From a virus, in the IMG/VR virus record IMGVR_UViG_3300032245_000193, positions 1 through 35,216 of that record: a stretch of DNA of 35,216 nucleotides; one strand, written 5' to 3'. A model generated the notes under the pieces. That model was not told the origin of the DNA, searched no databases, and worked only from the letters and a program-made list of their open reading frames with translations. The translations under genes were made by a program, and so were the position numbers. This document shows positions 4,019 through 21,245 of the stretch, piece by piece (position 1 is the stretch's first letter; every line of letters starts with the position of its first letter).

Positions 4019-5275
4019 TTAATAGCCAGAAATTACATCTAGTACTTCATAACTTTCTTCTTCGTAGTCTTGTTGATAGCTAGTCAAAGCCATCTGATCG
4101 ATATACGCCAGTGCGTCCACAAGGTCATCATGGACATTAGCGGTAGGGAACTGGAGTAACTGATCTACAAACTCTTTCCAGTCTTCATCTTCGTTTAGGG
4201 TAATCCTACCGTGTTCAAACCTACCCTGTAACGCCCAAGCTACTCGCTCAGTCTTTTTCTTGTTGCCGTGCGTCAAATCCGTGATATGGAAATAGACATT
4301 GTTCTTACGCATCAAATCGTTTAAGTAGGGATGCACTGCATTCTTTAGCGCCCCTCGTTCGATTCCTACAGCCATCGGCTGGTATTCTTGTACAAGTCGA
4401 AGTATCTTTGCTGCTGTCTCTTTAATGTCCCAACGACCATGTACAATCTTCTCAACGAACCAATCTCCTGTATCTTCTACTTTTACAATTGCGATAGCGG
4501 ATTCGTCTAAGCGTTTCTTTGAAGCACCTGCATTCTTCGCCACCTCTTCAAATCCTGCCAAATCGATAGCGATAATGTAGTCCCCATACTGAGGGTTTTC
4601 GCCATAACGAATCCATTCTTCCTTGAAGATTTCTTGACCGGCATTGTCAAAAGATGCTTCGTACTCTTGCTTGAACGCAAAAGACGAGAGCGTCTTCCTT
4701 GCTGCGTCCACCTCTTTCGGGTCAATCGTCTCATTATCTTTAGTGGTGAAGTGCCATGCTTTCCATTCTTCGTCTTCTTCTTCCATCCCTAGTTTATACA
4801 TATCGTAAAACCAGTTACGCCCTGACGGAGTGGAGATGAACATAGCCTCTCCCTTCTTATCCGACAGAGAAGCACGAACAATCTTCTCCCAAGTCTCCTG
4901 CTTAATAAACGCACACTCGTCTAGGACTGCGTAGTACAGACTCAAACCACGAAGGGTATCACTGTTGTCTGCGCCTCTGACATGAATCTTACGACCATTC
5001 ACCAAGGTGATGTCCAGATTGTTAATGTGAGCAGACTTAATAACAGGTCTACCAATCTCTAGGAGGCTGTCCCAGATGATTTGTCTGGACTGTCCTAGGG
5101 TCGGGGACACATACAATACAGCGCTGCCCTCTGGTGCCTCTAATGCCTTTATAATGAGCATCATCGTTGCTAGACGACTCTTACCGCACCGCCGCCCTGC
5201 TGCTATTACTTTAAAGCGAGTCTTATCCTTAAAGACATCTTGCTGCCACTTTAGCAACTGAAAGTTAAGATTCAT
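4019..5275 (-). CDS. terL: Terminase large subunit
   Basis: ATP-driven packaging motor with ATPase and nuclease domains. Residues (numbered from the ATG at 5275): Walker A AAGRRCGKS near 25-33, Walker B YAVLDECAF with the D/E pair near 119-120, a coupling motif FISTPSG near 147-152. The RNase H-fold nuclease follows, with AIDLAG (Asp near 238), VGIER (Glu near 296) and a C-terminal HDDLVDALAY (Asp near 383-387) as metal ligands. Length of 418 aa is at the short end for TerL but all expected motifs are present. An upstream in-frame GTG at 5284 would add three residues; I prefer the ATG because GAGG lies just before it. It overlaps the TerS end by 11 nt. Confidence 0.95.
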   Translation of the reverse strand: MNLNFQLLKWQQDVFKDKTRFKVIAAGRRCGKSRLATMMLIIKALEAPEGSAVLYVSPTLGQSRQIIWDSLLEIGRPVIKSAHINNLDITLVNGRKIHVRGADNSDTLRGLSLYYAVLDECAFIKQETWEKIVRASLSDKKGEAMFISTPSGRNWFYDMYKLGMEEEDEEWKAWHFTTKDNETIDPKEVDAARKTLSSFAFKQEYEASFDNAGQEIFKEEWIRYGENPQYGDYIIAIDLAGFEEVAKNAGASKKRLDESAIAIVKVEDTGDWFVEKIVHGRWDIKETAAKILRLVQEYQPMAVGIERGALKNAVHPYLNDLMRKNNVYFHITDLTHGNKKKTERVAWALQGRFEHGRITLNEDEDWKEFVDQLLQFPTANVHDDLVDALAYIDQMALTSYQQDYEEESYEVLDVISGY

Positions 5276-5690
5276 CGACCTCACCCATGTCTACGACATC
5301 AGCATCGATAGTGGGACTGTTCAGTCCAGTGATGTTGATGCTGATCTGTGGCGTGGTTCCACCGTTCTTAGCGGCATCGAATACCGACACTGGCAGAATC
5401 CTATCGACACACAGCTTTAGTGCCGCCATGTTATCCTTATCGTCAGGATTTAATGCTTTGGCGATAAGTGTCTCAATTATCTTATCTCCGGAGGTGCCAA
5501 GCAATCTGGCTTTGAATTCAGCAATTCGTGCTGAGTCTCCGGCTGGTCTTCCGACCTTACCCCTATTACCCTTCTTCTTCGCCTCGATGTCCTTCTTTAG
5601 GGGACGACCTAACTTACGACGAACAATCTTAGGACGAGGCGGTTTAGTATCGACAACTTCAGTTGTTATTTCGACAGAATCATTGCTCAT
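5265..5690 (-). CDS. terS: Probable terminase small subunit
   Basis: 141 aa, first gene of the leftward operon and overlapping TerL, the classic TerS position. Residues 20-50 are very basic with two AT-hook-like cores (KLGRPLKK and GKVGRPAGD), a plausible DNA-recognition arm. Residues 55-105 (IAEFKARLLG..., ETLIAKALNPDDKDNMAALKLCVDRILP) look like the helical oligomerisation core of phage TerS-like proteins. The C-terminus is acidic (DADVVDMGEVDES), possibly contacting TerL. RBS AAGGAT precedes the ATG. The assignment rests on position plus character; TerS proteins diverge rapidly, so an alternative DNA-binding protein is possible. Confidence 0.7.
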   Translation of the reverse strand: MSNDSVEITTEVVDTKPPRPKIVRRKLGRPLKKDIEAKKKGNRGKVGRPAGDSARIAEFKARLLGTSGDKIIETLIAKALNPDDKDNMAALKLCVDRILPVSVFDAAKNGGTTPQISINITGLNSPTIDADVVDMGEVDES

Positions 5691-5791
5691 TGTGTCTTTT
5701 ATCCTTTTTGGAAGACATTGCGTACTATATAGGGTTTTCGCTATTGGAGAGGTTTCTATAGGAGAAGAATATTAATCATCCTATATCGCTA

Positions 5792-5814
5792 ACGAATCAT
5801 CCCTAACGATTCGT
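5792..5814. promoter_or_regulatory. Inverted repeat ACGAATC/GATTCGT in leftward leader
   Basis: Perfect 7-bp arms (5792-5798 and 5808-5814) with a 9-nt loop. It lies just downstream of the expected start of the leftward transcript, so it would form a 5' leader hairpin or act as an operator. Confidence 0.5.
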
Positions 5815-5823
5815 CATAGTTCT

Positions 5824-5841
5824 ATATAGTGCGAACTATAT
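5824..5841. promoter_or_regulatory. Inverted repeat ATATAGT-GCGA-ACTATAT over the -10 box
   Basis: Perfect 7-bp arms with a 4-nt centre. The right arm contains the -10 box of the leftward promoter and the left arm lies about where transcription would start, an ideal repressor-site position. A further ACTATATAG half-site is at 5723-5731 in the leader. Confidence 0.55.
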
Positions 5842-5863
5842 CATACTTTTCTTCATTTGTCAA
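5835..5863 (-). promoter_or_regulatory. Near-consensus sigma70 promoter for packaging operon
   Basis: On the minus strand: -35 TTGACA (5863-5858), a spacer of exactly 17 bp, and -10 TATAGT (5840-5835). Transcription would start near 5828, giving a leader of about 140 nt before terS. This is the best promoter found by eye in the window and indicates use of host RNA polymerase for late genes. Confidence 0.8.
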
Positions 5864-5870
5864 GAGGTTT

Positions 5871-5886
5871 TTAACTATTTTGTTAA
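5871..5886. promoter_or_regulatory. Inverted repeat TTAAC-TATTTT-GTTAA
   Basis: Five-bp arms around a TATTTT centre, 7 bp upstream of the leftward -35 box. A sister copy with the same centre, TTGAC-TATTTT-GTCAA, occurs at 29537-29552 before the tail-tube genes. A shared regulator site is inferred. Confidence 0.5.
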
Positions 5887-6186
5887 CTATACTGTCCCTC
5901 CGGTGCGGGACTCCATAGGCTTGATAGGTCTCCGCAACCCTGCGACATAGTCCACTTCGTGTGCGCCGACTCCGCAGGAGGTCTGTATTGACTGCTTTCT
6001 ATACAGTCCAGACTTCGTCTGTTCCATCCTTGACTGTGTCCCTTTATTGTCTACTCTGTCCCTATTTATTATTACCTTAGTTATCATAGACTTACATTGC
6101 AGTGCAATATAGTCCTTTTTTACTATTTTGTATACAGTAGCGGCTCCGACAACATTACACAACACAGCCAACCCCACCCCCCCCTA

Positions 6187-6285
6187 TGTTGTTTTTATAC
6201 AACACTTTATAGCCTGTGTTGTTTTTATACAACAGTTGTTTCTATGCAACACTGTATAGATCATCAGTGTTGTTTTTATACAACA
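6187..6285. repeat. Cluster of four 18-bp palindromes TGTTGT-N6-ACAACA
   Basis: Copies at 6187-6204, 6217-6234 and 6268-6285 are identical (TGTTGTTTTTATACAACA); a degenerate one, AGTTGTTTCTATGCAACA, is at 6234-6251. Start-to-start distances are 30, 17 and 34 bp. Each has 6-bp inverted arms. They could be iterons of an origin or operators of an early repressor. A related unpaired ACAACATTACACAACAC lies upstream at about 6150. Confidence 0.85.
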
Positions 6286-6351
6286 GTCTGTTACGATAGC
6301 GATAAACTATTAAGACTTGATTGTCAATAGAGCCTGTATATGGGGCGATGA

Positions 6352-6368
6352 TGCACCTTTATAGTGCA
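6352..6368. promoter_or_regulatory. Inverted repeat TGCAC-N7-GTGCA
   Basis: Perfect 5-bp arms around CTTTATA, with a half-site TGCACCAT at about 6383-6390. A comparable ATTGC-AGT-GCAAT lies at 6096-6108. Candidate regulatory sites upstream of the early promoter. Confidence 0.4.
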
Positions 6369-6467
6369 ACATAGTAAACCAATGCACCATGATAGAGCAT
6401 AGGCTTAGGCTATCGACATAAAATCTTGATAGTTAAATACAATCAATAACTTAGGGTTTATCCCTAT

Positions 6468-6495
6468 TTGACAATACTATTATTAATAGCATACT
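6468..6495 (+). promoter_or_regulatory. Putative early rightward sigma70 promoter
   Basis: A consensus -35 TTGACA (6468-6473) is followed after 16 bp by CATACT (6490-6495; 4 of 6 matches) or after 18 bp by TACTGT. The spacer contains a CTATT-ATT-AATAG inverted repeat (6477-6489). The ArdC start lies about 40 bp downstream, so this would drive the early operon. Confidence 0.5.
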
Positions 6496-6535
6496 GTAGC
6501 TGTAGTTTTGATTAATTTATACAGGAGCTAAAATC

Positions 6536-7405
6536 ATGAGCGCATTAGTTTATCAACAAGTAACTGACAAAATCATTGCCGAGCTAGAAAGCGGCAATAT
6601 TCCAAGCTGGGTTAAGAATTGGAGCGGCGAAGCCGGCGCCGATTGTAATGTTATTACTAAGAAAACCTACAGCGGCATTAATACAATTATTCTCGGCATG
6701 AGCGGGTTTAAATCACCGTATTGGGGTACTTATAAGCAATGGCTTAGTATCGGCGCACAAGTAAGTAAGGGATCGAAGGGTACACAAATAATATTCTATT
6801 CACCAATAGAAAAGGGTACTAAGATCACCGAAGCCGGCGAAGTTAAAAACTATAGCTATATCCTAAAATCGTATACCGTATTCAATGCCGATCAAGTTAC
6901 CGGATTTGAAGCGCCAGCAATGCCAGCGCCGAAGATTTTTAATGATGTTGCTAGTATTGAAGCGCTAACGGTTAAAAGCGGCGCCATATTACAATTTGGC
7001 GGCGATAGAGCGTACTATTCACCGTCGCAGGATTTTATTGCAATGCCGCATAAAAGCCAGTTTAATAATGAAGCCAGCTATTATGCAACATTGTTGCATG
7101 AGTTAGCGCATTGGACCGGGCATAAATCCCGCTTAGATCGGGATCTATCCGGTAGATTTGGTAATGAAGCATACGCCGCCGAAGAGCTAATTGCTGAGCT
7201 AAGCGCCGCATTCTTATGCGCTCGGTTTAGTATCACCGGGGAATTGCGCCATTCTAGCTATATTGCTTCATGGCTTCGGGTACTTAAAAACGATAATAAA
7301 GCAATATTTAAAGCCGCCGCATTAGCACAAAAAGCCGCCGATTATCTAGCGGGTTTTGCCGGTGAAGTGCCTAGCGAAGTATCCGAAGAGCTAGAAGCGG
7401 CTTAA
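6536..7405 (+). CDS. ardC: ArdC-type antirestriction protein with zincin domain
   Basis: 289 aa. The N-terminal half (about 1-130) matches the ArdC ssDNA-binding domain: an opening helix ending in WVKNW, KTYSGINTIIL, YWGTYKQWLSIGAQVSKGSKGT and the tail YTVFNADQVTGF. The C-terminal half is a zincin metallopeptidase-like domain with the zinc site HELAHWTGH (H188, E189, H192) and a downstream EELIAE segment (217-222) supplying the third ligand. ArdC proteins are carried by conjugative plasmids and phages and protect incoming DNA from host restriction; as the first rightward gene it would be made immediately on entry. AGGAG lies 8 nt before the ATG. The gene is rich in GGC, GCC and AGC codons compared with the replication genes. 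Confidence 0.92.
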   Translation: MSALVYQQVTDKIIAELESGNIPSWVKNWSGEAGADCNVITKKTYSGINTIILGMSGFKSPYWGTYKQWLSIGAQVSKGSKGTQIIFYSPIEKGTKITEAGEVKNYSYILKSYTVFNADQVTGFEAPAMPAPKIFNDVASIEALTVKSGAILQFGGDRAYYSPSQDFIAMPHKSQFNNEASYYATLLHELAHWTGHKSRLDRDLSGRFGNEAYAAEELIAELSAAFLCARFSITGELRHSSYIASWLRVLKNDNKAIFKAAALAQKAADYLAGFAGEVPSEVSEELEAA

Positions 7406-8329: not shown

Positions 8330-8617
8330 ATGCGTAAGTTAACATTAAACTATTATCAAGATCCGGGGCATGGCTGGGTTAAATGCTCTATTGGTTTGCT
8401 ATATGGTTTAGGCATTGCCGATAAGATTACCCGCTATTCATACCGGCGTGATGATTATGTATATCTAGAAGAGGATTGTGATTTAAGTACACTATTTAAT
8501 GCTTGTGACATTGCCGGGATAGAATTAAAGCTAAAACAATTCCATACCAATAAGACCAGTAAGATTAGGTCCTATAGTAACTATCATCAACCAATGGAGG
8601 TTTTAAATCATGCTTAA
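8330..8617 (+). CDS. Small phage protein of unknown function
   Basis: 95 aa with a strong AGGAGG 9 nt upstream of the ATG. The start contains YYQDPGHGWVKC, a pattern seen at the N-terminus of many small phage and bacterial proteins without assigned function. Tyr-rich (YSYRRDDYVYLEED) and mixed alpha/beta in character; no membrane segment or signal peptide. It is the third gene of the early group and shares its GGC/CCGG-rich codon style. Confidence 0.75.
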   Translation: MRKLTLNYYQDPGHGWVKCSIGLLYGLGIADKITRYSYRRDDYVYLEEDCDLSTLFNACDIAGIELKLKQFHTNKTSKIRSYSNYHQPMEVLNHA

Positions 8618-8690
8618 ATCATTGCTATTAACCGGCGTATGCCTTTATACTTGTATTGCTGCTGTAATATCTATCGTATTCTATTTATAG
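8610..8690 (+). CDS. 26-aa membrane peptide
   Basis: ATG at 8610 overlaps the preceding stop; GGAGG at 8596-8600. After MLKS almost the whole peptide is one hydrophobic helix (LLLTGVCLYTCIAAVISIVF). Translational coupling and RBS support it; too short for family recognition. Confidence 0.5.
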   Translation: MLKSLLLTGVCLYTCIAAVISIVFYL

Positions 8691-8702
8691 GAGGGTTTAA
8701 TA

Positions 8703-8861
8703 ATGGATAAATTTGACTATTACATGGAATTTATGTCGATGCGCTTAGATGATCCACAATTTAGATTAATGTATGGGATCAATGAATTCGATAAATGGTA
8801 TTCTGATTACATAGAGATACTTAACCAAAAATACGGAGAGCCGGCGCATGATAATGACTAA
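8703..8861 (+). CDS. Small acidic hypothetical protein
   Basis: 52 aa, opening MDKFDYYMEFMSMRLDDPQF. GGAGG at 8690-8694 gives a clear RBS. Rich in D, Y and F, no membrane segment. Sits in a tight run of tiny genes and is overlapped by the next start at 8848. Function unknown. Confidence 0.6.
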   Translation: MDKFDYYMEFMSMRLDDPQFRLMYGINEFDKWYSDYIEILNQKYGEPAHDND

Positions 8862-9000
8862 ACTATTGATTTTATTGGGCTTTATGTCGCTAATGTCTAG
8901 CGCTTATGCCTGTAAAACTGTTATAATCGACACACCGAAAGGCACTACTGTATGTTACATATGCGCCGATGGTAAACTAGTGAATTGTGCGCCATTATGA
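8848..9000 (+). CDS. Small secreted Cys-rich protein
   Basis: 50 aa (48 if the third codon, ATG at 8854, is used; GGAGAG precedes both). A typical signal peptide, MTKLLILLGFMS followed by LMSSAYA, is expected to be cut after AYA, leaving a mature peptide of about 29 aa with four cysteines: C at the new N-terminus, then CYIC and a C near the end. Two disulfides in the periplasm, or a metal site, are plausible. Such tiny exported Cys peptides recur in aquatic phages without known role; superinfection or envelope modification is a guess. Confidence 0.65.
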   Translation: MIMTKLLILLGFMSLMSSAYACKTVIIDTPKGTTVCYICADGKLVNCAPL

Positions 9001-9098
9001 AAACACTATATTGGTGGGCTTGTTTTTACCTAGTTTTAGCCTATGTTGTCTATCATCTTATTGGAGTGGCTTTATGTTATGCTTGGGAATACCTCTAA
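8997..9098 (+). CDS. 33-aa membrane peptide
   Basis: ATG overlaps the previous TGA (ATGA). MKTLYWW is followed by one hydrophobic helix rich in aromatic residues (ACFYLVLAYVVYHLIGVALCYA). Probably an inner-membrane peptide translated by coupling. No family recognised. Confidence 0.5.
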   Translation: MKTLYWWACFYLVLAYVVYHLIGVALCYAWEYL

Positions 9099-9188
9099 AA
9101 CCTCTTAAACGGGGCTATACGGGGTTTTCTTAGAGTAGTTAAGGGGTAGGTATTAATTAATTAATTTAAATTGAATAGAGAGGCTTTT

Positions 9189-9311
9189 ATGAAATGGATT
9201 GTAATTGATTTACAGGGGCGGATATTGGCTAAATTTATGACGGAATTAGAGGCTCATGATTTTGCCGACAATCAGATTAATTATGCCTATGTGGAAAACG
9301 AAGGGGATTAA
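9189..9311 (+). CDS. 40-aa hypothetical protein
   Basis: Starts MKWIVIDLQGRILAKF and has an EAHDFADNQ element, giving a short beta-hairpin plus helix pattern seen in small phage proteins. The RBS is AGAGAGG at 9178-9183. Its stop overlaps the next ATG by one base. Function unknown. Confidence 0.55.
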   Translation: MKWIVIDLQGRILAKFMTELEAHDFADNQINYAYVENEGD

Positions 9312-9541
9312 TGATGCACTGCACAATATGTGACAAAATGCTTAATGATTATGAGTCAACACGAAAGACCTTAGATGGCAAGTATTTGGATATGTGCCAA
9401 GACTGCTATACGGGACTTGATGTATTGATACCGACAATAGATCGTAAGGATTTACTGCACGAGGCTGATATGCCGTCAATGGATCAGATATTTGACGAAT
9501 ACGGGGACTATACAGACTATGATGATTATAAAGACCTATGA
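9311..9541 (+). CDS. Small zinc-ribbon-like protein
   Basis: 76 aa. N-terminal CTIC (residues 4-7) and CQDC (29-32) form a C-x2-C ... C-x2-C set, consistent with one structural zinc. The remainder is acidic and Tyr/Asp-rich (FDEYGDYTDYDDYKDL). A second in-frame ATG lies at 9314. Starts at the last base of the previous stop, indicating coupling. Possibly a DNA- or protein-binding adaptor; function unknown. Confidence 0.7.
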   Translation: MMHCTICDKMLNDYESTRKTLDGKYLDMCQDCYTGLDVLIPTIDRKDLLHEADMPSMDQIFDEYGDYTDYDDYKDL

Positions 9542-9609
9542 TGTTATACAACTTAGTATATGCTTATGATATATACATAGTTAAAAACACCTATGAAGTA
9601 ATACTATAA
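9538..9609 (+). CDS. Possible 23-aa peptide
   Basis: ATGATG overlaps the previous TGA and reads MMLYNLVYAYDIYIVKNTY. The only support is coupling and neighbour style. It may be chance. Confidence 0.25.
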   Translation: MMLYNLVYAYDIYIVKNTYEVIL

Positions 9610-9626
9610 AGTGAGGGTATCATATT

Positions 9627-9689
9627 ATGATGATTTTGTCAATAGCATTCTGTTGTATTTATGTCGTTGTATTTATTACTAATGTGTGA
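9627..9689 (+). CDS. Possible 20-aa membrane peptide
   Basis: ATGATG at 9627 with GAGGG about 10 nt upstream; nearly entirely hydrophobic (ILSIAFCCIYVVVFITNV). Fits the run of tiny membrane peptides but is too short to be sure. Confidence 0.35.
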   Translation: MMILSIAFCCIYVVVFITNV

Positions 9690-9718
9690 TATTGTCGGAT
9701 TTATTACAAGGAGGATTT

Positions 9719-9892
9719 ATGCATCATAACGAAGAAGCAAGGTATCATTTCATAATGATGGACTTTGTCGATTTAATCGGTGATTATGGCTATGACAAGG
9801 TCATGGACGATTTATCTACCGCTATCGCTGACAAGGTCAATCGCTTAGTCGGTAGGGCTGTTGCAGAGGAGATCGATGAAACTCCGTTTTGA
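9719..9892 (+). CDS. 57-aa hypothetical protein
   Basis: The start at 9719 is set by AAGGAGG 5 nt upstream, the strongest RBS in the block; the frame opens earlier at a poor GTG. Amphipathic helices (FVDLIGDYGYDKVMDDLSTA, DKVNRLVGRAVAEEIDE) suggest a small all-helical, possibly dimeric protein. The downstream gene starts inside it. Function unknown. Confidence 0.65.
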   Translation: MHHNEEARYHFIMMDFVDLIGDYGYDKVMDDLSTAIADKVNRLVGRAVAEEIDETPF

Positions 9893-10055
9893 GGTCAGGG
9901 ACGAATATAACGAGATTGTGCGTTGCTTTGCTAGTAAGCAAGAGGCACAGGCACATTGTAAGTTAGATCCTAGTTTCTATCTCAAAGTCAATCAACAAGT
10001 CAAACCAAACCGGTTTAAAGAGGCTTGGGAAAGGTTAGGCGAATGTCTATTTTGA
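9876..10055 (+). CDS. 59-aa hypothetical protein
   Basis: ATG at 9876 with AGAGGAG just upstream, overlapping the previous gene by 17 nt. Begins MKLRFEVRDEYNEIVRCF with a SKQEAQAHC helix, the same short strand-strand-helix plan as the 9189 gene, so the two may be distant relatives. Basic C-terminal half. Function unknown. Confidence 0.6.
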   Translation: MKLRFEVRDEYNEIVRCFASKQEAQAHCKLDPSFYLKVNQQVKPNRFKEAWERLGECLF

Positions 10056-10273
10056 TGCGTGGTTTTGTTATATCGGCGTTCTTCTTTGGTATCTTGGTCG
10101 GCTATGTTGCTGGTCGTATGGAATGGGCGCATGAGGATTGTTATGACGCAACAGGCAAGTATCAGCGTTATGAGGCTTGGTTAAGTGTTAAGAATGGGAC
10201 TTATCGTTGTTTTTGGATTGAAAAGGATTACCCGCATCGTGTTAGGATGCAGGGTGTGATTGATGTTAAATAG
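10043..10273 (+). CDS. Single-pass membrane protein, unknown
   Basis: 76 aa from ATG 10043, overlapping the upstream stop by 13 nt. Residues about 6-24 form one transmembrane helix (FVISAFFFGILVGYVAG). The remaining domain (CYDATGKYQRYEAWLSV ... CFWIEKDYPHR) carries two cysteines that could pair if it is periplasmic. Function unknown; its place in an early/middle operon argues against a virion role. Confidence 0.65.
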   Translation: MSILMRGFVISAFFFGILVGYVAGRMEWAHEDCYDATGKYQRYEAWLSVKNGTYRCFWIEKDYPHRVRMQGVIDVK

Positions 10274-10280
10274 GAGAGAA

Positions 10281-10526
10281 ATGATGGAGAATTATTATTA
10301 CGATATTAGCAACAAGATTGACCTGATTCAAAGCCGTATGAATTGCTTTGTATCAATGTTAGAAACAGTAGCATCGGCTGATCCGAATGATTTAACTAGC
10401 GGTTCTATGTGGTTTGTACACGATACAGTAAAGCAATACTCAGAGCAGTTAGCAGAACTATCCCATGTAGTTATGGAGTTCCACGCAGAAACATTAAACA
10501 TACCAAAGAAAGGTAAGCAGAAATGA
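10281..10526 (+). CDS. Helical hypothetical protein
   Basis: 81 aa. AGGAG at 10272-10276, overlapping the previous stop, points to ATG 10281 or 10284; the earlier ATG 10263 lacks an RBS. Long helices with a coiled-coil look (ISNKIDLIQSRMNCFVSML, VKQYSEQLAELSHVVMEF) and a Lys-rich C-terminus. Function unknown. Confidence 0.65.
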   Translation: MMENYYYDISNKIDLIQSRMNCFVSMLETVASADPNDLTSGSMWFVHDTVKQYSEQLAELSHVVMEFHAETLNIPKKGKQK

Positions 10527-10678
10527 CATTATTGCAACTACCAAAGGTTATTGAAGCGGTGAATGAACTTGGTCAAGAGATTCAGGCATTAAAAGCCAAG
10601 GTTCAGGCACTAGAACAACAAATTGCATTAGCCAAAACCATAAAGGAACCCAAGAATGTTGGCGGAAAAGCAAAGTAA
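10523..10678 (+). CDS. 51-aa coiled-coil protein
   Basis: ATGA coupling to the previous gene. Heptad-like pattern in VIEAVNELGQEIQALKAKVQ and on to ALEQQIALAKTI, then a basic tail. The primase-helicase start lies inside its 3' end (23-nt overlap). Could be a small oligomerisation partner; unknown. Confidence 0.6.
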   Translation: MTLLQLPKVIEAVNELGQEIQALKAKVQALEQQIALAKTIKEPKNVGGKAK

Positions 10679-20810: not shown

Positions 20811-21245
20811 CTACACAAAATTCCTAGTACCGTTCTTATCGATAATTAGGGCTTGTCTACGAGGCTTGTCAGAAGTAGCGTTAGGAACGCTTATATGCGT
20901 CCAAGAGCCGAATTCTTCGATGATTTGGTCAAAGGATATATCCGAAGCCAAACACGCCTCTACGACCTGTTTAGGGGTCATTCCGGGGACTCTGATATCA
21001 GCAGCACAACCTATCCTATGTTGGCTAGTGTCCTTGCTACCGACAGAGTCATTGACTGGTTTAGACCTAAAGCCAGAATTAATCATTATTGGCTTGTTTA
21101 GGAGGGTTCTAACTTGCTCAAGCAAGGCTGCCAATCGAGTTAGATTAGCAACCTCTGTAGCGTTAGGGGTATTATCTAGGTTCTTACGCTCTGCTACTTC
21201 AGAGTGGGTTAGTTCTTCTAGTGTAAAGTTAGGGCTTAGGTTCAT
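20811..21245 (-). CDS. Endolysin, M15 (D-Ala-D-Ala) peptidase type
   Basis: 144 aa peptidoglycan peptidase of the Peptidase_M15_3 type. Features: N-terminal FTLEELTHSEVAE, GFRSKPVN near 58-65, zinc motif SQHRIGCAADIRV with H76 and D83, and WTHISV with the third ligand H117. No signal peptide, so it needs the adjacent holin for release. It starts inside the holin gene (17-nt overlap) and is the last gene of the leftward late operon. Confidence 0.92.
   Translation of the reverse strand: MNLSPNFTLEELTHSEVAERKNLDNTPNATEVANLTRLAALLEQVRTLLNKPIMINSGFRSKPVNDSVGSKDTSQHRIGCAADIRVPGMTPKQVVEACLASDISFDQIIEEFGSWTHISVPNATSDKPRRQALIIDKNGTRNFV

Follow-up and report, generated by a model that had tools for sequence, protein, structure and literature searches.

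A divergent control region with an island of predicted host-regulator operators in a podovirus-like phage family

Positions 5691-6535 of a 35,216-base IMG/VR virus contig (hereafter the window, an incomplete genome) are where transcription diverges in a podovirus-like phage family, and the two sides of this hub are under different control. Our preferred reading, to which we assign a probability of about one half, is that host regulators replace a phage repressor in this hub, with early transcription being wired to them via an island of operators. Leftward, a constitutive-looking host sigma-70 promoter would start the terS/structural operon, while a folded leader and a hairpin over the terS ribosome site would probably gate its amount and timing. 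Rightward, the early promoter would be preceded by the island, which in the window comprises four putative outer-membrane (porin/MlaA/OmpW) operator dyads plus NtrC-like sites, and which in relatives carries candidate DnaA, NrdR, LexA, Fur, HrcA, NtrC/sigma-54, ParB or GntR-type TCA-cycle sites in the same slot. Host proteins binding the island would set early transcription by cell state, making a phage repressor unnecessary. More tentatively, this single slot between a conserved core and the early promoter, with operators of at least eight host regulators swapped in, may constitute a plug-in physiology sensor, which if true would cover nitrogen, iron, DNA damage, heat, nucleotides, central metabolism and the envelope. 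A phage that has neither polymerase nor repressor of its own still has to time its infection, and if host operators set that timing, uncultured phages could be read for the host signals that they obey, while the question of whether virulent phages sense host physiology would become directly testable.

A divergent hub between terS and the early genes

The genes to the left of the hub lie on the minus strand and include a terS-position gene (5265-5690, assigned by its position upstream of terL, its product having no Pfam or PHROG match), the adjoining terminase large subunit gene terL (4019-5284, Terminase_6N match) and an SU10/P22-type portal gene. To its right, on the plus strand, are an ArdC-like anti-restriction protein (6536-7405, Pfam ArdcN and MPTase-PolyVal), GP88, a primase-helicase, a family A DNA polymerase and a ribonucleotide reductase. 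Both contig ends consist of leftward genes, and the genome is organized around this single divergent hub at 5.7-6.5 kb and a single convergent point at ~20.7 kb. The closest DNA polymerase from an isolate is that of Pelagibacter phage HTVC103P (50% identity), and the DNA of the region itself has no similar sequence among isolate phages or plasmids. We compared ~150 relatives that were fetched via their terminase and then aligned, which revealed three layers: a left promoter with its leader, a central core and a right operator island. The ArdC-like gene was present in only one of 12 relative contigs, and in five relatives (L002, L008, L037, L044 and L065) a gene of ~450 aa replaces it as the first rightward gene, so the cargo adjacent to the hub is evidently exchanged. 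A conjugative-plasmid or oriT reading, prompted by ArdC, was dropped given the neighboring terminase and portal genes. A coding role for 5691-6535 was likewise dropped, as the ORFs within it are not conserved (indels, C-run length) and no frame is shared.

The first-pass annotation had described this region as gene-free and divergent, which is borne out, as are its sequence and coordinates, and every element that it listed is present. Perfect inverted repeats (arms ≥6, loop ≤12) number 16 in the region compared to 3.4±2.3 in shuffled sequence, with none of 300 shuffles reaching 16. Promoter-like sites are not in excess (4 found vs 6.0±2.4 expected); the case for the leftward promoter comes from its conservation rather than from site excess. 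The suggested alignment with related phages separated the lasting elements from the transient ones: the leftward promoter, leader, core and an island of changing operators are kept, but not all repeats are conserved. The inverted repeat reported upstream of the -35 (TTAAC..GTTAA, 5871-5886) exists in the window and is lost in close relatives, while hairpins at 5981-6030 are missing from most relatives. Sister phages lacking several repeats retain the terS-terL order and have their right-hand genes exchanged, so the individual repeats are not essential. The view of the repeats as DNA elements holds only in part, since two helices of the leader (P1 and P2) and the ribosome-site hairpin are better explained as leader RNA structure.

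The use of host RNA polymerase is upheld, and the scan of window proteins, from an incomplete genome, found no RNA polymerase or repressor family. The lambda-type switch region has divergent promoters with palindromic operators between them, and the present hub shares that layout. Unlike lambda, it is flanked by terS and ardC, its operators match host regulators, and we saw neither a phage repressor among the proteins scanned in this incomplete genome nor a lysogeny module. We also dropped a resident prophage or plasmid form, because a search of ~85,000 bacterial and archaeal genomes returned no copy of the core.

Predicted operators in the right-hand island

The segment at 6187-6466 reads as an operator island. 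Its most prominent component is the palindrome cluster noted at first pass, which consists of a TGTTGT-N6-ACAACA dyad (TGTTGTTTTTATACAACA) present in three exact copies (6187-6204, 6217-6234 and 6268-6285) and one degenerate copy (AGTTGTTTCTATGCAACA, 6234-6251). To our knowledge, there is no known consensus for this dyad or for a second phage-derived dyad, GTCTTATATAAGAC. Among ~85,000 genomes, the window dyad occurs in 66 contigs, at least nine of which are named Methylophilaceae or Methylotenera; the proteobacterial copies lie mostly upstream of outer-membrane genes, while many other matches fall inside ORFs. A search of 80 Methylophilaceae genomes returned 37 sites, versus one for the reversed control, and the genes downstream were mostly those for porin, MlaA, OmpA/OprF and OmpW. 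TGTTGT-W6-ACAACA seems to be an operator, as yet undescribed, of an outer-membrane regulon in Methylophilaceae (L252-L295), and from the dyad alone we infer this family to be the host of the window phage, an example of how such operators may point to a host. The same motif also precedes genes for TonB receptors in Woeseiaceae and for porin-like proteins in marine Alphaproteobacteria. In addition, a Methylophilaceae genome bin includes a 4.9-kb contig (L188, CAINIH010000104.1) that has a Fur-like box beside the TGTTGT dyad together with CTCTGAGGTA repeats and is possibly another phage with host operators.

The second dyad behaves similarly. GTCTTATATAAGAC was found in 76 of 250 Burkholderiales genomes, where the reversed control is rare; in these it separates a GntR-family gene from malate dehydrogenase and also precedes the genes for aconitase, isocitrate lyase and isocitrate dehydrogenase. 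In the phages, 25 copies are located in islands, with none in 763 kb elsewhere. For both dyads, genomic context points to control by a host regulator, which for GTCTTATATAAGAC would be of the GntR/TCA-cycle type.

To assess the islands more broadly, 33 host operators and the window's own dyad were tested to the right of the core, and the excess seen for DnaA, parS, Fur, CIRCE, LexA, NtrC, sigma-54 and NrdR persisted in a recount with stricter thresholds and distinct-flank counts. In that recount, against dinucleotide shuffles, DnaA boxes numbered 115 versus 5.6 in shuffles, Fur sites 17 versus 0.37, parS 6 versus 0 (flanks all different), CIRCE 12 versus 0.03 (reducing to four distinct flanks), NtrC sites 37 versus 0.07 (≤1 mismatch) and LexA boxes 17 versus 2.4, although all six, together with OxyR-like sites, had been spotted by eye before the test, so that these enrichments are not strictly blind, and related phages are not fully independent in any of the counts. 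Sigma-54 sites (47 vs 3.0) and NrdR boxes (21 vs 1.5) had not been spotted beforehand, nor had the negative motifs. Most of these host-type motifs are absent to the left of the core. About fifteen of the tested operators gave no excess in the islands, with ArgR, FNR, CRP, PurR, TrpR, MetJ, BirA and Rex among those showing no enrichment right of the core. Zur and OxyR were only moderately above shuffles and PhoB hardly so, and none of these three is claimed. Pairs of ACACTATAGGTAGTGT-type NrdR boxes lie 31-32 nt apart in ten relatives, equal to a 15-16 bp spacer, and NrdR binding is strongest with a spacer of 15-17 bp between boxes (PMC12051234). The NrdR-type box ACACTAYAGGTAGTGT has just three matches in 250 Burkholderiales genomes and no clear nrd context there, so its assignment to NrdR rests on shape and pair spacing. 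Overall, the island sites are well supported by sequence as host-type operators, with the outer-membrane dyad being the only firm one in the window, where no DnaA (exact box), LexA, Fur, CIRCE or parS site occurs in the island. Individual islands can be composite, as in L181, which lines up a Fur-like box with an exact parS of 16 bases, a LexA box and a sigma-70 promoter.

The first-pass annotation had proposed that the palindromes serve a small phage protein encoded at 8330-10678. We found no support for this: the small early proteins scanned have no DNA-binding family, and the palindromes, including the main window dyad, instead match host-regulator operators in bacterial genomes. A phage-encoded regulator would be favored by the dyad TTAGTGAGTGCTCACTAA, which is not matched exactly in any of 250 Burkholderiales genomes and could be phage-specific, and by a palindrome (TAGGG-TTTAT-CCCTA, 6452-6466) that abuts the rightward -35, yet given the host matches of the main dyad we consider such a regulator improbable. 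Sites related to this palindrome, AGGGT(T/A)(T/A)ACCCT, are also found right of the core in relatives. TTAGTGAGTGCTCACTAA and a further dyad, AGTGACT-N4-AGTCACT, are both strongly enriched in islands (L075, L090, L120, L164 and others).

How the sites are placed bears upon whether they control phage promoters at all. Six relatives (L036, L040-L043 and L045) have the TGTTGT dyad 24-36 nt upstream of the -35 of the leftward promoter, which would be an operator-like position, and sigma-54-like sites lie ~50-80 nt ahead of the first early gene in several relatives, with L110, L118, L164 and L093 having such promoters immediately before it. In the window, the dyads are ~180-280 bp upstream of the rightward -35, which is far for direct repression. 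Between them lies a conserved element, C2 (GGGGCGATGATGCACC, plus strand, 6342-6357), which many relatives have at ~80-200 nt to the right of the C-run. An NtrC-like site with one mismatch (TGCACC-N5-AGTGCA, 6352-6368), of a class enriched in islands, and a weaker NtrC-like match at 6383-6399 were also seen; the NtrC-like matches overlap C2 and may simply be part of it. The proposed rightward promoter (TTGACA-N16-CATACT, plus strand, 6468-6495) is present but weakly conserved, with a strong match in 26 of 91 relatives compared to 14-15 on control strands, and we treat it as a candidate.

The operators might alternatively form a decoy, titrating host regulators as the phage genome multiplies without controlling phage promoters; nucleotide synthesis (NrdR), chaperonins (HrcA), SOS, iron uptake and outer-membrane genes would be derepressed as a result. 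Titrating each of these regulators would free a function useful to a phage, the distances from site to early gene vary, and some sites are multicopy (up to 7 DnaA boxes in L101 and four dyads in the window, with 0 to 4 dyads in relatives). Most operators, however, occur only once per genome, which would be too little for titration at an early stage of infection, and a decoy would require neither a dyad beside the leftward -35 nor sigma-54-like sites at the position of the early promoter. For these reasons we prefer control by host regulators and regard pure titration as unlikely, though decoy and replication roles may coexist with control.

There is precedent for parts of this arrangement. In phages of Alphaproteobacteria, CtrA sites are packed into intergenic regions, with binding and regulation shown experimentally and 'lytic deferment' proposed (PMC9437464). 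The present phages likewise have a large intergenic region in which host-regulator sites are dense and, at the sequence level, confined to the promoter region, with a similar proposal of timing to host state. They differ in that many regulators rather than one are represented in a single island, known here from sequence rather than from experiment. Cyanophage genes are controlled by the host PhoBR system (PMC10976474), which also involves phage promoters using a host nutrient regulator, except that the Pho boxes occur at individual genes, with one regulator and no common island. We found no case in the open-licence literature of many regulators being exchanged in one slot, and the present system would best be read as the CtrA 'lytic deferment' proposal extended to multiple regulators.

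The central core

The best conserved part of the region is a universal core at 6115-6184 (plus strand), composed of a T-tract (6115-6135), GGCTCC (6142-6147), an A/C-rich spacer and the C-run listed at first pass as C8, which reads C4-A-C8 (6172-6184). A dyad just outside it (ATTGCAgTGCAAT, 6096-6108) is conserved in close relatives. GGCTCC and the C-run are separated by 31-32 nt in 118 of 121 sequences even though the spacer sequence varies, and with this fixed spacing of about three helical turns the core probably binds a protein complex as DNA. A degenerate core pattern retrieved 103 contigs, and the core was located 0.7-1.8 kb upstream of terL in all 84 contigs with enough sequence. A sigma-70 promoter within the core was dropped because the logo does not fit. 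The core is an element separate from the island, most likely either an origin or a packaging signal, and its strict spacing in more than 100 phage contigs calls for an explanation of its own.

In one reading, the core, T-tract and C-run included, would be the origin of replication proper and the sites to its right initiator sites, an arrangement that could coexist with an operator island. Several features point this way, including the fixed helical spacing and the DnaA boxes, which are 71-fold denser in the 300 nt to the right of the core than in the rest of the contigs, with none to the left. As in DnaA-dependent origins, TTATNCACA clusters lie beside a T-rich element in many relatives. The G-rich strand of the core resembles ColE1 R-loop priming tracts and the mitochondrial CSB2 element, which we take as a lead only. 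The recommended skew analysis did place the cumulative G-C minimum at 6214 and the maximum at 21240, but the skew follows gene direction and is therefore confounded. Moreover, DnaA boxes occur in only 36 of 125 relatives as one of many host site types, the parS and Fur sites are left unexplained, no initiator protein was recognized, the window island has no exact box, and the core is not a known origin type. An origin is thus a possible reading, held with less conviction than the operator reading.

Alternatively, the core could be the pac site recognized by TerS. It is present in one copy with fixed spacing and is always upstream of terS, and more IMG/VR contigs (L083-L183) terminate close to the C-run than expected, with 14 ends vs 3.1 in the 300 nt to its right and 12 vs 5.2 in the 500 nt to its left, the ends being scattered. 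These ends do not pile up at one base, and a hypervariable island alone breaks assemblies; furthermore, TerS falls to 45-50% identity while the core barely changes. We therefore view a packaging site as quite unlikely. A cos site or direct terminal repeat was dropped, since the ends are scattered over hundreds of bases without a common terminal sequence. The N-terminal part of TerS (5265-5690) does contain two basic, AT-hook-like GRP motifs, which count toward packaging and might bind the core T-tract. It should also be mentioned that the T-tract unit (TTTTTACTATTTTGTATAC) is duplicated in tandem at ~22 nt, or two helical turns, in ten relatives (L008, L011, L016, L021-L023, L029, L030, L033 and L047).

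Leftward promoter and leader RNA

The leftward promoter claimed at first pass, TTGACA-N17-TATAGT, is upheld. On the minus strand at 5835-5863, it has a -35 TTGACA (5863-5858), a 17-nt spacer with a TG extension and a -10 TATAGT (5840-5835), matching the sigma-70 extended -10 promoter at 11 of 12 positions with the TG, and we place its transcription start near 5828-5832. Of 91 relatives, 79 conserve a match of this type (≥10/12) at 160-325 nt to the left of the core. The inverted repeat over its -10 and start was found at 5822-5840 and is conserved in part, with one mismatch in about half of the close relatives. This site is predicted to be a near-consensus extended -10 host promoter from which terS and the structural genes are transcribed behind a folded leader. 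A strong, constitutive-looking promoter ahead of late genes makes control at the level of the leader plausible.

The leader RNA of this operon (5691-5832, minus strand) is predicted to form helices P1 (5832-5822/5732-5724), P2 (5816-5790), which corresponds to the reported leader hairpin, and P3 (5785-5757). It folds at -34.4 kcal/mol (z -3.5), with none of 200 shuffles being as stable. In 11 of 25 relatives, two P2 pairs are altered on both sides in a compensatory manner, and the P2 loop GUUAGGG is nearly invariant, which together with the stability above shuffles is characteristic of a structured regulatory leader. P1 and P3 are absent from the consensus fold; the P1 closing helix is predicted in the window and many close relatives and is rearranged in others, making it less secure. 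A hairpin is also predicted over the terS ribosome-binding site (GUCUUCC..GGA..AAGAC, 5693-5717, minus strand), and its GUCU..AGAC frame recurs in the groups of relatives inspected. Rfam yielded no family at gathering score for the region and two sub-threshold matches. A pseudoknot between the P2 loop GUUAGGG and a CCCUA near TerS was set aside, as it is present in some relatives and absent in others. Lastly, in four relatives (L007, L011, L028 and L034) an insertion of ~60 nt that contains two hairpins (CAGCCGAAGGCTGG .. GTTGCTTCGCAAC) separates the leader from terS.
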